The position numbers were made by a program, and so were the translations under genes. A stretch of 64,000 bases of DNA from Labilibaculum antarcticum. Its GTDB lineage: Bacteria; Bacteroidota; Bacteroidia; Bacteroidales; Marinifilaceae. The notes under the pieces are model-generated. The model was not told where the DNA came from and did not search any database. It was given only the letters and a program-made list of their open reading frames with translations. Below are positions 6,366 through 63,982 of the stretch, piece after piece; the first letter of the stretch is position 1, and every line of letters starts with the position of its first letter. The stretch spans positions 5,302,361-5,366,360 of the forward strand of contig NZ_AP018042.1 in assembly GCF_002356295.1 (NCBI RefSeq), given 5' to 3'.

Positions 6366-6872
6366 CTATTTAGTACCCATAAATTGGTAGTCTCCATCAC
6401 TCATTTTAAATAAATAGTTAAAGGTATTGTGTCGCATATCGAAATTTCCAAAATGCTCATCGTCTTCCTCATGTTCATCACTTAAATGATGCATCCATTC
6501 TGTTTCTCCATTCTGAAGGTCACTCATCATTCCACCTGCCATATGATTTTCGCCTTTCATGTGACCGTAGATTTGTTCAAATTCCTCTCCTGTGTGGCAA
6601 ACGAAAACACTATCACTATGCTGGTAATAATCAAGCATAAATGTTGTGTCTAATTCTCCTCCAGAACAATGAATCTGAATTTGGTCACCAATAATCATTA
6701 CATCTGCATACGCATGATCATCTGAAGATAATCCCGATTTCACTAAACTTTTCACTGATAAAGTCCCAGTATATTTTCCTGTAATTTCATTTAACTGCTC
6801 ATCATCATTTTTGCCGCAAGCAACAAAAATGACCAAACTAAGCAGTACCGCTACTATTGTTTTTGATTTCAT
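6366..6872 (-). CDS. His/Met/acid-rich lipoprotein of the copper island
   Basis: The 168-residue product has a lipoprotein signal ending in VIFVACGKND, so Cys20 should be lipidated. The mature part has potential metal ligands in clusters: YGHMKGENHMAGGMM around residue 105-117 and EWMHHLSDEHEEDDEHFG further on, with single Cys residues in QIHCSGGE and VFVCHTGEE. I do not recognise the family. Position directly upstream of the copper ATPase, in the same orientation, suggests a surface or periplasmic metal binder (inference). Confidence 0.7.
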   Translation of the reverse strand: MKSKTIVAVLLSLVIFVACGKNDDEQLNEITGKYTGTLSVKSLVKSGLSSDDHAYADVMIIGDQIQIHCSGGELDTTFMLDYYQHSDSVFVCHTGEEFEQIYGHMKGENHMAGGMMSDLQNGETEWMHHLSDEHEEDDEHFGNFDMRHNTFNYLFKMSDGDYQFMGTK

Positions 6873-7035
6873 AACTTTCCTTTTTTAATGATTAAATATT
6901 TAGTTGGTGATAGATGGAATCAAGCCAATTTGAATAAAATACTCTAGCAAGGTCTGATCCCATCTGATCAAAAATAAAACCCAAGTGTCCAAACCTCCAT
7001 TTAAACACGTCACCAAACTATGAAAAACCTAAGCT

Positions 7036-7314
7036 CTACAGTTTTAAAAAAAATCCCTTTAGAAAGCTGAACAGCCGAGATCCGTTACTATACCCAGCAA
7101 TTACTGGTTCCTTTTTAATATCTAAATCTGAAATTATTTGTTCCATTTCCATTATACTAATTGTCGATGAATCGTAGAATAACTGTATTCTATTTTCTGA
7201 ACAAACAACCTTTCTAACCTCTTCTATTCCAGAGAATAGAATGTTAATTGAATTTATTTCAAATAAAGTCAAATCCAGATCAGTATGGAATTCAAAACAT
7301 CTAATGGCACTCAT
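7036..7314 (-). CDS. Small HMA-fold-like protein without the CxxC
   Basis: The 92-residue product has the alternating strand-helix pattern of an HMA-like fold: MSAIRCFEFHTDL, a helix-like INSINILFSGIEEVRKVV, a strand RIQLFYDSS, then MEMEQIISDLDI and a strand. No CxxC is present; one Cys is in the first strand and one in VVCSENR. It lacks a signal peptide, and ends in a hydrophobic SFLKGFFLKL. It starts 9 bases after the 175-residue gene's stop. It may be a degenerate metal chaperone or a dimerisation module. Function is not known. Confidence 0.55.
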   Translation of the reverse strand: MSAIRCFEFHTDLDLTLFEINSINILFSGIEEVRKVVCSENRIQLFYDSSTISIMEMEQIISDLDIKKEPVIAGYSNGSRLFSFLKGFFLKL

Positions 7315-7323
7315 AACTATAAA

Positions 7324-7851
7324 TTATGGTAGGTTATATATTAGAGTTTCATCATTATTATTAAAACTCTCTCCAACATGTTTGTAAATAAGCATTTTGG
7401 TTTGTCCTTTTGTATGGATTATTTCCATCATATTACTGTTATCAACCTTTAACAAGGATTCCCCTGTTTCGGTGATTACGTTTAGTGTAAAATTGACTTT
7501 ACTATAGTCAACATTAGGATCTTCAAAGTTATCTGGCACTGTAAATTCCAAACAAGAATATACAACCTCAACTTTTTCGTCTTTATTGAAAGTTGTTTGT
7601 GAAATTAATTTAACCTCATCTAAAAGATGGTTTTTAGGCAGAGGTAGCATAACAGTTTTCCAAAGGGTGTTATCAATATTATAGATGAAAATAGTTTGCT
7701 TTTTCTTATCATATTTCACATACTTAAAAGATCCGTCATCCAACTGAATGGATTTGTATTTTGAATCAATTTTTGCTTCATATTTAATCTGGGTATAACC
7801 AACTGTAGCTATAAAAAGCAGAAGAATGGTTAATAACGTATTTATTTTCAT
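7324..7851 (-). CDS. Exported protein of unknown function in the copper island
   Basis: The 175-residue product has a signal peptide (MKINTLLTILLLFIATVGYTQ) and a mature part rich in beta-strand patterns. It ends abruptly at ETLIYNLP, a phrase that in many Bacteroidota exported proteins lies just before a type IX sorting tail, so the gene may be a shortened form of such a protein (inference). Its only Cys is in VVYSCLEF. It is about 170 bases downstream of the CusB-like gene and could be the last gene of the RND operon. No enzymatic motif was found. Confidence 0.55.
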   Translation of the reverse strand: MKINTLLTILLLFIATVGYTQIKYEAKIDSKYKSIQLDDGSFKYVKYDKKKQTIFIYNIDNTLWKTVMLPLPKNHLLDEVKLISQTTFNKDEKVEVVYSCLEFTVPDNFEDPNVDYSKVNFTLNVITETGESLLKVDNSNMMEIIHTKGQTKMLIYKHVGESFNNNDETLIYNLP

Positions 7852-59512: not shown

Positions 59513-62500
59513 ATGAAGATTACCCAATTGAGAATAAAAAACCTGAACTCGTTAAAAGAGGAACACGTGATCCCTTTTAATCAGGCCCCACTGAGTGAAA
59601 CAGGTTTATTTGCCATTACCGGCCCAACGGGAGCAGGCAAAAGCACTTTACTTGATGCCATCAGCCTTGCCCTGTACAATCAAATTCCCAGAAGCGGCAA
59701 ACTATCGAGAAACAATATTGAAAATTTCGGGACTCTTATCACACGCGGCACATCCGATTGTTATGCCGAAGTGGAATACCAGGTAAATGGCAATAGCTAC
59801 CGATCAAAATGGAGCATTAGCCGAAACAGAAATCACAATCTCCGCGATTACGAAATGGAGCTTTCCCAATTGAACCCAGATGGTGAATGGGATATTCTGG
59901 AGCAGGCAAAAAGACTTATTCCCGGCAGAAATGCAGAAATAACAGGGCTTAATTACGATCAGTTCGTAAAATCGATTGTTTTATCGCAGGGTGAATTTGC
60001 CAAATTTCTGAAAGCAAATGCCAATGAACGTTCCGAATTGTTGGAGAAAATCACCGGAACCGAAATTTACCGGCAGATTGGAAAAGCGGCCTATGCCAAG
60101 CTAAAGGAACAAGAAGATTTTATTGCCGCTATCAATAATAAAATGCAGGGTATTGAACTGCTAAGCCCGGAAGACAAAACCAGTATCGAAGGGAATGCTA
60201 AGACCCTAAAACAAGAGCTGGAAAATTTAGAGATGCAAATCAAAATCACCAAAGAGCAGGTCTCTGTTCGAAAGCAAGAAGCAGAGTGGAAGCTTTCCCT
60301 TGATAAAAACAAGACGGATGAAGAAGAACTTCGAAAGGAGATTACGGCATTTACGCCTCTCTTGCAGCAACTTGAGCAACACAACAAGTTAATTCATAGT
60401 AAAGGGGATTTGCAGCAAAACATACAACAGGAGCTGCAGATTAAGCAGCTTAAAAAACAGATTGAGGAATACAAAGCAGAAATAGAAAAGAAGAAGAAAG
60501 AGCTGGAGCAAAGTAAGGAACAGCTGAAAAACGATCTTGAAAATGAGAAGACTGTGGTAAAAGAACGGGAACAATTGCGTCCTATCCTCAGTAAAGTCTC
60601 TCAGTTGGATGAGCAATTAAAAATGCTTGCAAATCAGGTGAAAGAACGCAAGGCAGAATTGGACCTGGCCGTTCGAACAAACAAAGAATTAAAAACCAAA
60701 CAGGAGCAATACAATTTCGATTTGAAAGGCTGTGGAAAATCGAAAGAGGAAATAGAAAAAATATTGGAAAGGGACAAAGCTCTTGAAGAGGTTCCTGTCC
60801 TATTGCCTTTGGTGAATCAACAACTGGATCAGATAAAAAGGACTTACTCGAAACTGGAAGAGGAAGCCGCAGCATTAAAAAGCACAGAATTACGCGATCA
60901 AATCCGTAAAGGCAGCAATTGGGCGCAAAAGATAGACCTGCTGCAAGTAAAGATTGATGATGTTAAGGCGCAGCTGATCCCGATTGAGAAAGAGCTGGAG
61001 AAAGCAAATTTCACCAACAGAGAGGAGTTGAATCAGCAATTGACGCAGGCCAGTCGAAAAAGCAAGAGCCTTGAGCAGCTGGAAAGCCTGCAAAAATATT
61101 ACCTCAAAGATCATCAGGAAAATAAGGAGCTGCATTTACAATTAAAAGCCAACAATCGGTCCATCGAGTTAGCAGCAAATCTTTTGAAGGATCAAAAGCC
61201 TAAATTAAAAGTGCTTGAACTGAAAGAAGAAGAGGTAAGCATCAGGCTGCAGCGTTTGCAACTGGAATCTTCTTTGGAAGACAAACGGGAGCAACTGGTT
61301 GCCGGTGAAGCTTGTCCTTTGTGTGGTTCAACACATCATCCGTACGTAAAAAGCTACGAAAACAAGAGTGAGGAAAGTAAGAAAGAAAAGCAACAGCTGC
61401 AGACTGAACTAAAAAAGCTTGCCTCAGAAATTGAGACAAAACAAAAAGAATTGATTCTGCTCGAAGCTGATAACAAAAGCATACTGAATCGACTTGAAAA
61501 AGTAAAGATCTTGCTGAACGAAAATTCAAAAGCCTTTGAGGAAGAACAGTTGAAAATCAAAACCGAACTGACTGTAATGGATCAGGATGCTCTGAAAATT
61601 ATTGCCGGAGAACATAAAATTTGGGCCCGGCAAATAGAGCTTTCTGCAAAAAACTTCGATTCCAGAGAAAACATGCTTCAGAATTTGCAGGTGATGGCGC
61701 CCCTACTCGAGAAAGTGAAATTGATTGCTGAAGCTCAGGAACAAAGCGAGGCCAGTCTGTGCAACTTGCAGCACTTTATTCAGAACGAAACCAATCTGAA
61801 ATCGAAACTGGAGGCCTTGCATGCACTTCACCTTGGGTATCAAAACAAAAAAGAAGAGCTTTTACATCAGGATAAAAATATACTACGGCTAAACGAACTG
61901 ATAAAAGCCGGACTAGAGAACATACAGATTGCCAACAAAGATGCTGAACAGAAAACGGCAAATTTAAACAAACTTGCAAAGAACAAATTGGATGTTGAGC
62001 AGGAACGAAAGCTATTACTAGGCGATAAATTGCCAGCGGAAGAACAGGAAAAGATCGATAAGAAGCTGGAACTGGCCAGTGCTAAGCTGCAAGACAGCTC
62101 GAAAAAGGAAGTGAGCATTAAGCAGAACATAACCTACTTGCAGGAACAAACCGACAAGGAAACAAAAAACGCCAGCAAACTAGAGATAGCCTATGCCGAG
62201 GAGTTCAAACGACTACTAGCTCTTGTTCAGAAACATTCTTTTGACAGCTTGGAGCTTGCCATGAACGCCATTTTACCCGAGGGGAAAGCGGCCGAAATTA
62301 AGAACAGACAAGATGCCCTTCAGAATAGAGAAACCGCCCGTAAGCAAAGTGAAAAAGACCTGCAGGAAGCACTAGCCAAAATTAAATTGAAGCTTACAGC
62401 GATTGCTACCGAAGAACTTCTGGAAAAAGAAAAGCAGGAAGATGCTCAATTGGGAGATGCCAACAAAAGTTTAGGTGCCTTTGAACAACAACTAAAGCAA

Positions 62501-63070
62501 GACAAGGAGAACCGAAAACGTGCTGGTAGTCTTTTAACAGAACTGGAAGTGCAAAGAAAGGAAGTGAAACGATGGGCCAATTTGAATGAATTAATTGGCG
62601 ATGCTACCGGAAATAAGTACAGCAAGTTTGCTCAGGAACTAACGCTTCAGCAGATGTTGAGTTTGGCCAATTTGCATCTGATGAAACTGGATCAGCGCTA
62701 CCTCTTAAAATACAATCCGCAGCAAAACGAAGACCTTTTTGTGGTGGATACCCTGCAAGGCAACGAGGAACGATCGGTTCGCACCCTATCGGGCGGTGAG
62801 AGTTTCCTGATTTCGCTGGCCTTGGCCTTGGGCTTATCGGATTTGGCAGGACAAAATACCCAACTGGAAACCCTCTTTATTGATGAAGGATTCGGAAGTT
62901 TGGATCAGGTAACCCTGGAACTGGCCTTGTGCACCTTAGAGCGCTTGCAAGCCGAAAGCAACCGCACCATTGGTATCATTAGTCACGTGGAAGCTTTAAA
63001 GGAACGCATCAGCACCCAAATAGAGCTGGTGAAAGATAGTGCTGGCAACAGCCATATTGAAATCAGATGA
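59513..63070 (+). CDS. sbcC: SbcC, Rad50-like ATPase of the SbcCD complex
   Basis: The 1185-residue protein has Walker A ITGPTGAGKSTLLDAISLAL at about 36-50, two long coiled-coil arms rich in Lys, Glu and Gln, the zinc hook GEACPLCGSTHHPY near residue 600, the ABC signature TLSGGESFLISLALALGLSD near 1094 and Walker B ETLFIDEGFGSLD near 1125. It is somewhat longer than E. coli SbcC because of the coiled coils. It forms the ATP-driven clamp for SbcD. A strong terminator follows. Confidence 0.95.
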   Translation: MKITQLRIKNLNSLKEEHVIPFNQAPLSETGLFAITGPTGAGKSTLLDAISLALYNQIPRSGKLSRNNIENFGTLITRGTSDCYAEVEYQVNGNSYRSKWSISRNRNHNLRDYEMELSQLNPDGEWDILEQAKRLIPGRNAEITGLNYDQFVKSIVLSQGEFAKFLKANANERSELLEKITGTEIYRQIGKAAYAKLKEQEDFIAAINNKMQGIELLSPEDKTSIEGNAKTLKQELENLEMQIKITKEQVSVRKQEAEWKLSLDKNKTDEEELRKEITAFTPLLQQLEQHNKLIHSKGDLQQNIQQELQIKQLKKQIEEYKAEIEKKKKELEQSKEQLKNDLENEKTVVKEREQLRPILSKVSQLDEQLKMLANQVKERKAELDLAVRTNKELKTKQEQYNFDLKGCGKSKEEIEKILERDKALEEVPVLLPLVNQQLDQIKRTYSKLEEEAAALKSTELRDQIRKGSNWAQKIDLLQVKIDDVKAQLIPIEKELEKANFTNREELNQQLTQASRKSKSLEQLESLQKYYLKDHQENKELHLQLKANNRSIELAANLLKDQKPKLKVLELKEEEVSIRLQRLQLESSLEDKREQLVAGEACPLCGSTHHPYVKSYENKSEESKKEKQQLQTELKKLASEIETKQKELILLEADNKSILNRLEKVKILLNENSKAFEEEQLKIKTELTVMDQDALKIIAGEHKIWARQIELSAKNFDSRENMLQNLQVMAPLLEKVKLIAEAQEQSEASLCNLQHFIQNETNLKSKLEALHALHLGYQNKKEELLHQDKNILRLNELIKAGLENIQIANKDAEQKTANLNKLAKNKLDVEQERKLLLGDKLPAEEQEKIDKKLELASAKLQDSSKKEVSIKQNITYLQEQTDKETKNASKLEIAYAEEFKRLLALVQKHSFDSLELAMNAILPEGKAAEIKNRQDALQNRETARKQSEKDLQEALAKIKLKLTAIATEELLEKEKQEDAQLGDANKSLGAFEQQLKQDKENRKRAGSLLTELEVQRKEVKRWANLNELIGDATGNKYSKFAQELTLQQMLSLANLHLMKLDQRYLLKYNPQQNEDLFVVDTLQGNEERSVRTLSGGESFLISLALALGLSDLAGQNTQLETLFIDEGFGSLDQVTLELALCTLERLQAESNRTIGIISHVEALKERISTQIELVKDSAGNSHIEIR

Positions 63071-63186: not shown

Positions 63187-63215
63187 AAAAAAAATCCTCC
63201 CATAAAAGGAGGATT
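63187..63215 (-). terminator. Terminator of the transposase gene
   Basis: On the minus strand AATCCTCC and GGAGGATT form an eight-pair hairpin followed by a T-run. It overlaps the transposase stop codon by two bases. A similar structure survives at 19858-19890. Confidence 0.75.
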
Positions 63216-63855
63216 ATCTGTTATTAGATGTCGTGATGTAAATTAAATAAAGATCCTCTATCCATTTGCATGGATTATTTTGGATGTATTGTTCGATGCG
63301 ATGGAAGGAATCAAAATCGCGGACAATGTGATCGTGAAATCGGCTTTGCCATGTAAATTCAGAATTGATTTTCCGGGCATTAATGGTTACCGATGATTTG
63401 AATCCGCGAATAATTGATGCCAAATTTTTGGATTGTGATCCAAATTTCGCATTTGTAGAGACGCGATGCATCGCGTCTGTACAAAAATCATTGGAAATGC
63501 GATGCATCCTGTGAAGAGGTAATGTGCATCCTGTGGAGACGCGATGCATCGCGTCTGTATGGGTATTGTAATTATTTTTGCCAATGGTGATTAGGGCATG
63601 AAAATGATTGGGCATGATCACAAATTCGCCCAATTCCAAATTCATATCGGGTCTGATTCCAGGTGTTTTCAGCCATTCGCTTGCCGCCAATTCCCCAATT
63701 TCATTCAATCTCATTTTCCCATTGGAAATTTCCCCAAAATAATGTTGGCGGTGCTGCGTGCAGATGGTCACAAAATAAATGGCATTCGATCCGTAATCCC
63801 AATCTTTTAATCGGGCAGATGGGATCCGGTATTTATTTTGAAATTTTCCGTCCAT
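63214..63855 (-). CDS. REP-associated tyrosine transposase (RAYT, Y1/IS200-like)
   Basis: The 213-residue product has IYFVTICTQHRQHYFG at the N-terminus, the HUH motif in MPNHFHALITIG, SIIRGFKSSVTINARK, WQSRFHDHIVRD and the catalytic Tyr in RIEQYIQNNPCKW. These are the hallmarks of RAYT proteins, single-strand transposases that mobilise REP palindromes. Between HFHALI and the C-terminal helices it carries an insert with DAMHRVST twice and a degenerate LHRMHRIS, which is the translated REP sequence (see 63459-63556). Flanked on its upstream side by more REP copies. Probably active or recently active. Confidence 0.92.
   Translation of the reverse strand: MDGKFQNKYRIPSARLKDWDYGSNAIYFVTICTQHRQHYFGEISNGKMRLNEIGELAASEWLKTPGIRPDMNLELGEFVIMPNHFHALITIGKNNYNTHTDAMHRVSTGCTLPLHRMHRISNDFCTDAMHRVSTNAKFGSQSKNLASIIRGFKSSVTINARKINSEFTWQSRFHDHIVRDFDSFHRIEQYIQNNPCKWIEDLYLIYITTSNNR
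63459..63478. repeat. REP palindrome inside the transposase gene, copy 1
   Basis: AGACGCGATGCATCGCGTCT is a perfect 20-bp palindrome and is read in frame as TDAMHRVS. Confidence 0.9.
63496..63514. repeat. Degenerate REP unit inside the transposase gene
   Basis: AATGCGATGCATCCTGTGA keeps the GCGATGCATC core only; a further fragment GTGCATCCTGTGGAGAC follows at 63524-63540. Confidence 0.6.
63537..63556. repeat. REP palindrome inside the transposase gene, copy 2
   Basis: The same perfect 20-bp palindrome as 63459-63478, again read as TDAMHRVS. Confidence 0.9.
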
Positions 63856-63875
63856 TATTATAGATTTTATTCATC

Positions 63876-63982
63876 GTACAGACGCGATACATCACGTATC
63901 TATCCAATCTAATTATCCTATTCAGACGCGATGCATCGCGTCTCTGCGCAAAAATGATTGATTTGCATCGCATCTCTGCTAA
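63876..63982. repeat. REP cluster beside the transposase gene
   Basis: Three units lie here: a mutated one at about 63880-63900 (GACGCGATACATCACGTATC), a perfect one at 63924-63943 (AGACGCGATGCATCGCGTCT), and a partial one at about 63963-63978 (TTGCATCGCATCTCTG). They share the 20-bp palindrome found in the adjacent gene. Confidence 0.85.

Follow-up and report, generated by a model that had tools for sequence, protein, structure and literature searches.

In-frame REP palindromes in a predicted disordered loop of a probable subclass 2.4 RAYT of Labilibaculum antarcticum

The RAYT locus of Labilibaculum antarcticum is, as judged from its sequence, very probably a REPtron of subclass 2.4, in which a REP was inserted in a disordered loop of the RAYT and was followed by multiplication and decay of the units. 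A REPtron of this kind would consist of a gene for a HuH/Tyr1 endonuclease and of cognate REP hairpins both beside and inside that gene. The locus lies at the end of the window, by which the whole analyzed stretch of 64,000 nucleotides is meant, and comprises the following features.

59513-63070, plus strand: convergent neighbor, 1185 aa, SbcC/Rad50-like by sequence resemblance
63214-63855, minus strand: RAYT (TnpA_REP) gene, 213 aa, Y1 HuH endonuclease by motifs, profile and fold matches
63459-63478, minus strand: intragenic REP palindrome 2, perfect over 20 bp, at about residues 126-133
about 63495-63514, minus strand: intragenic degenerate REP unit, TCACAGGATGCATCGCATTT, with 6 mismatches and 5 of 10 pairs kept
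63537-63556, minus strand: intragenic REP palindrome 1, perfect over 20 bp, at about residues 100-107, in the DAMHRV frame
63880-63899, no strand assigned: degenerate REP with 3 mismatches, upstream of the RAYT start
63924-63943, no strand assigned: perfect REP palindrome, upstream of the RAYT start

The original prediction had named the gene a RAYT, and this identification is supported by the HuH and Tyr motifs and by profile and structure matches. The protein carries H84-F-H86 (NHFH) as the HuH motif, W169-Q170, Y190 and YIQNNP, and the residues H84, H86, Y190 and P195 are invariant among 47 homologs. The NCBIfam profile NF047646 (REP_Tyr_transpos) matches with an E-value of 1.9e-17 and 63.5 bits, which is under the curated cut-off of 80 bits, a curator's threshold and not a biological feature. 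This match falls into two parts, one on either side of the loop, and the score below the cut-off is plausibly due to the REP insert splitting the domain. The match to Pfam Y1_Tnp is weak (2.2e-4) and slightly under its cut-off. By sequence, the sole relative with a solved structure is the E. coli TnpA_REP (profile A1 against 4er8, E 9.9e-8), and 4ER8 also ranks first in the PDB in a fold comparison (E 9.1e-6). The closest named relatives of the gene belong to Labilibaculum. The dN/dS of the core is approximately 0.12-0.15 against the closest orthologs and approximately 0.06-0.23 between homologs that differ in REP unit number; by these ratios the RAYT core is under purifying selection. In the AlphaFold model, the REP-bearing loop sits between the strand 84-91 and the helix 145-163, and the REP-encoded residues 104-134 have pLDDT values below 50, with the core above 90. 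The loop is therefore predicted to be disordered.

The palindrome AGACGCGATGCATCGCGTCT has three exact copies, at 63459-63478, 63537-63556 and 63924-63943, and a further copy at 63880-63899 that differs by 3 mismatches; no copy was obtained in shuffled sequence. The gene thus holds two full palindromes and one degenerate palindrome (at 63459, 63537 and about 63495), as had been predicted, and these fall between H84/H86 and Tyr190, the placement originally described. The translation of the palindrome as TDAMHRVST without a break of the frame was likewise recovered, in ORF 63214-63855, and the degenerate unit is translated as LHRMHRIS. The predicted cluster beyond the gene start consists of one perfect copy, one copy with 3 mismatches and a half unit near 63965, so that the RAYT is flanked by REP hairpins upstream (63880 and 63924). 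Palindrome 2 can be extended to 28 bp if one mismatched pair and a GTA/TAC foot are included. On the plus strand, both perfect intragenic copies are preceded by a GTAG/GTGG foot (GTAGAGACGCG and GTGGAGACGCG), and the feet of the two upstream copies are degenerate. As single-stranded DNA, the hairpin of 63453-63484 has a folding energy of -12.7 kcal/mol. When single-stranded, the loop region folds strongly whichever strand is taken (z of about -8.5 for DNA and -7.5 for RNA); this fold is chiefly that of the two perfect copies pairing together, and each copy is also able to form a hairpin by itself.

A normal, conserved protein loop could be encoded by a palindrome by chance, and the presence of the same DAMHRVS peptide in several congeners agrees with such a loop. 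This was addressed in 92 homologs with a definable loop, where the best inverted repeat of each loop at the DNA level was set against 200 synonymous recodings. The palindrome exceeds synonymous recoding at p<0.01 in 64 of these 92 loops, and none of the 92 control segments of equal length just before the HuH motif is significant. In addition, homologs use different reading frames for the palindrome at the same site. On the coding strand, the GT[AG]G foot is read as VET.. in 39 cases and as RD.. in 10, and the frame that reads it as TAG is unseen (0 cases). The encoded residues vary through reverse-complement codon pairs with the palindrome kept (DAMHRV, DAMHCV, DAINRV and DTKFCV). Compensated stem changes are found inside the genes (pair 7 is GC in 20, CG in 5 and AT in 5), and these changes alter the encoded residues yet preserve the hairpin. 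The core of the intragenic palindrome is repeated in the 600-bp flanks of its own locus in 30 of 65 cases, compared with approximately 4% for the flanks of other loci. The original prediction had named, as its refutation, homologs with the same residues in non-palindromic codons; what was found is the reverse, a palindrome that is kept while the residues change. The varying unit number (0-4) and the predicted disorder of the loop also argue against a normal loop, which was ruled out by the synonymous recoding together with the frame diversity and is now extremely improbable. The proposal of a REP insertion at a tolerant loop is upheld by the unit number, the differing frames, the predicted disorder and the purifying selection on the core.

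The insertion site is common to the orthologs and follows KNxxNT. L014 and L015 have a single loop unit, L011 and L012 have two, L010 and the window gene have three, and L037 has four; the family member L048 has no loop unit and a REP in its flank only. In L010 and L011, the surplus units are tandem repeats of 42 bp, and the additional units in the relatives look like products of 42-bp tandem duplication rather than of fresh insertions. In a tree of 90 loop-free cores, the window gene groups with seven others, all in one frame, with a support of 100/97. Across this tree, the frame or the presence of the insert changes at least 26 times, a number that is approximate because the tree has few columns. 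From this we infer one ancestral insertion in the clade of the window gene and many independent ones elsewhere. Homogenization of the inner REPs by the flanking REPs was considered and rejected: the inner stems are GCG/CGC and several flanking ones are GCC/GGC in L011, L012 and L014, and homogenization is therefore not general. The own and flanking copies could be shuffled by recombination instead of by the enzyme.

In-frame REP units also occur at or near the RAYT N-terminus in L037 and L066, and a REP-like peptide, GDVLQNVCTT, is present in another loop of L089. The loop between HuH and Tyr is therefore the main but maybe not the sole site. A second RAYT, 49% identical (L006, G000:C1:2335299-2335832), carries within its loop a REP of another sequence, AGACGTTGCATGCAACGTCT, and is directly followed by a fragment of a RAYT C-terminus (L007, 2335029-2335199).

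These observations can be arranged in a putative history. A REP would have entered the beta3-alphaC loop in an ancestor of the clade of Labilibaculum and a sister genus, as the tree suggests. The insertion would have persisted owing to the disorder of the loop and its distance from the catalytic residues, and to the lack of stops in the palindrome in the frame used. Afterwards, the units probably multiplied or decayed in whole-codon steps, by 42-bp duplication in relatives and to three units, one of them degenerate, in L. antarcticum, and the enzyme stayed under purifying selection. We infer at the level of the family, from family biochemistry, that the window RAYT may cleave or mobilize REPs. 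In the L. antarcticum genome, these REPs are restricted to the RAYT locus, and recent dispersal is unseen.

The genome-wide REP count that had been proposed as a check gave 3 exact matches to the 18-bp core and 4 at up to 3 mismatches in the 5.72-Mb single-contig genome, all at the RAYT locus. No dispersed copy was found away from this locus at up to 3 mismatches, and a dispersed REP family in L. antarcticum was thus searched for and rejected. The original wording of a transposase that mobilizes these palindromes finds no support here: 4 of 4 genomic copies lie at the RAYT locus, and present mobilization is unsupported since no genomic copy lies beyond it. Eight other Labilibaculum genomes have 0-5 copies each at up to 2 mismatches, nearly all inside, or a few hundred bp from, a RAYT gene. 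Strict double-foot REPs number zero in all nine Labilibaculum genomes and 58 in the family member G033, and a similar search of a Planktothrix genome gave 41 copies of its own REP. The pattern search is therefore able to detect dispersal. The 58 double-foot REPs of G033 are of several types, and in this 77%-complete genome a RAYT was not found at E<=0.001. In the RAYT family, dispersed cognate REPs are usual but not obligatory. Their absence, together with the protein score under the NCBIfam curated cut-off, counts against the preferred explanation of a subclass 2.4 REPtron with a loop insertion.

The absence of dispersed REPs is also what a decaying relic would give, in which this lineage has lost the activity of the RAYT and its REPs and the insert survives as neutral debris. 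In line with this, the RAYT ortholog L013 in genome G008 has a frameshift shortly past the loop with the REPs and is probably a pseudogene, and the Tyr motif of L015 reads NIP instead of NNP. The window RAYT gene, however, is intact, its core evolves at the low dN/dS given above for the closest orthologs, and two perfect palindromes are still present, and a relic is unlikely. Alternatively, the intragenic hairpins may be kept for a function, with the RAYT binding the REP hairpins of its own gene, as single-stranded DNA at forks or as mRNA, and so limiting its expression, or using the gene-borne REP as its principal substrate. Most loops of the subgroup hold REPs, the dispersed REPs that were sampled elsewhere lie for the most part beyond open frames (12/13 and 13/18), and the strong structure of the loop DNA and mRNA also favors a function. 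Four-fold sites differ less in REPs than in the core: hand-picked pairs give 3/41 differences in REPs against 122/323 in the core, but this comparison is biased toward intact palindromes, and the weaker test with less biased pairing (10/45 against 252/632, p=0.018) is the one to be trusted. Such slower synonymous change in the palindromes is compatible with maintenance at the DNA level. On the other hand, low divergence is equally explicable by recent acquisition, tandem renewal or a detection bias to intact palindromes, the motifs are kept without a significant palindrome in seven homologs (L048, L063, L071, L077, L085, L091 and L103), and RNA binding by TnpA_REP was not found in the limited biochemical literature examined. 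Functional retention of this kind is quite improbable. A related proposal, that the gene-borne REP of subclass 2.4 is actively maintained as a DNA or RNA cis element, for autorepression or as an enzyme-linked substrate, and is possibly the chief substrate left to a self-closed REPtron in Labilibaculum, would also be rather unlikely on this sequence evidence.

The surroundings of the RAYT differ among the relatives. A functional link between the RAYT and the convergent SbcC-like gene was rejected: that gene is not beside the RAYT orthologs of relatives, and the neighbor is therefore probably incidental. Upstream of the RAYT and in the same orientation, past the end of the window (L004:5267-6529 and 6525-7814, window 64267 onwards), two tandem paralogs of 421 and 430 aa are present that have no Pfam match. 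A 51%-identical homolog lies upstream of the RAYT in L038, from another genus, and the paralogs are possibly a co-traveling gene family. In congeners (L010, L013, L014, L056, L058 and L060), a fructose-bisphosphatase gene (PF06874) lies immediately downstream of the RAYT; of this neighbor, just parts of the C-terminal half match in L011 and L012. The window genome has this gene (L004:12382-14382) approximately 7.5 kb off on the other side of the RAYT, which points either to a rearrangement of the locus or to a move of the RAYT. A phage origin of the RAYT was rejected as well, since phage records gave one match only: MT839559.1:142-591, in a 4.8-kb 'Bacteriophage sp.' record from human feces, encodes a distant RAYT-like protein with 25% identity and 88% coverage.

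A described hallmark of TnpA_REP subclass 2.4 is the presence of REPs read in frame within a peripheral variable region that lies between HuH and Tyr, and REPs within the gene were called unique to this subclass (Quentin et al. 2018, PMC6006769). The window RAYT has the motifs NH[IFV]H (as NHFH), WQ (W169-Q170) and YIxNNP (as YIQNNP) of the subclass and its variable beta3-alphaC insertion of in-frame REPs. By these motifs and the loop insertion it very probably belongs to subclass 2.4, which is Bertels group 4. Besides the motifs and the in-frame REPs of the peripheral variable region, the likeness includes the occurrence in Bacteroidetes/Cyanobacteria and REPs with a GT[AG]G foot that are long or of the 'double foot' type; what differs is that the window locus has three tandem units with no REP elsewhere in the genome and that a series of 0-4 units was found here within one bacterial family. 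The E. coli TnpA_REP (Bertels group 2; 4ER8; Y/Z REPs) shares the Y1 HuH fold, the GTAG-foot hairpin and Y---NP, but belongs to subclass 2.2, with flanking REPs, short insertions elsewhere and dispersed REPs. REPs in frame in other genes have been reported (Di Nocera et al. 2013, PMC3733652). The palindromes of these GTAG families and the Rickettsia RPE are likewise in frame in host genes; those host genes are unrelated, whereas the window case concerns the gene of the cognate enzyme. IS200/IS605 TnpA has the HuH/Tyr1 fold too, but with Y---Q in place of the Y---NP of the window RAYT, which also has flanking REPs, and no tnpB was seen among the neighbor genes read.

Intragenic REPs in a RAYT have thus already been published for subclass 2.4, and the window gene is another case. 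Beyond the main published text, the synonymous-recoding test, the avoided stop frame, the series of 0-4 units and the lack of dispersed copies are added. The natural series of 0, 1, 2, 3 and 4 units at one site is usable for testing the effect of gene-borne REPs on the RAYT, and a REPtron with REPs only at its home locus helps to ask what drives REP dispersal.
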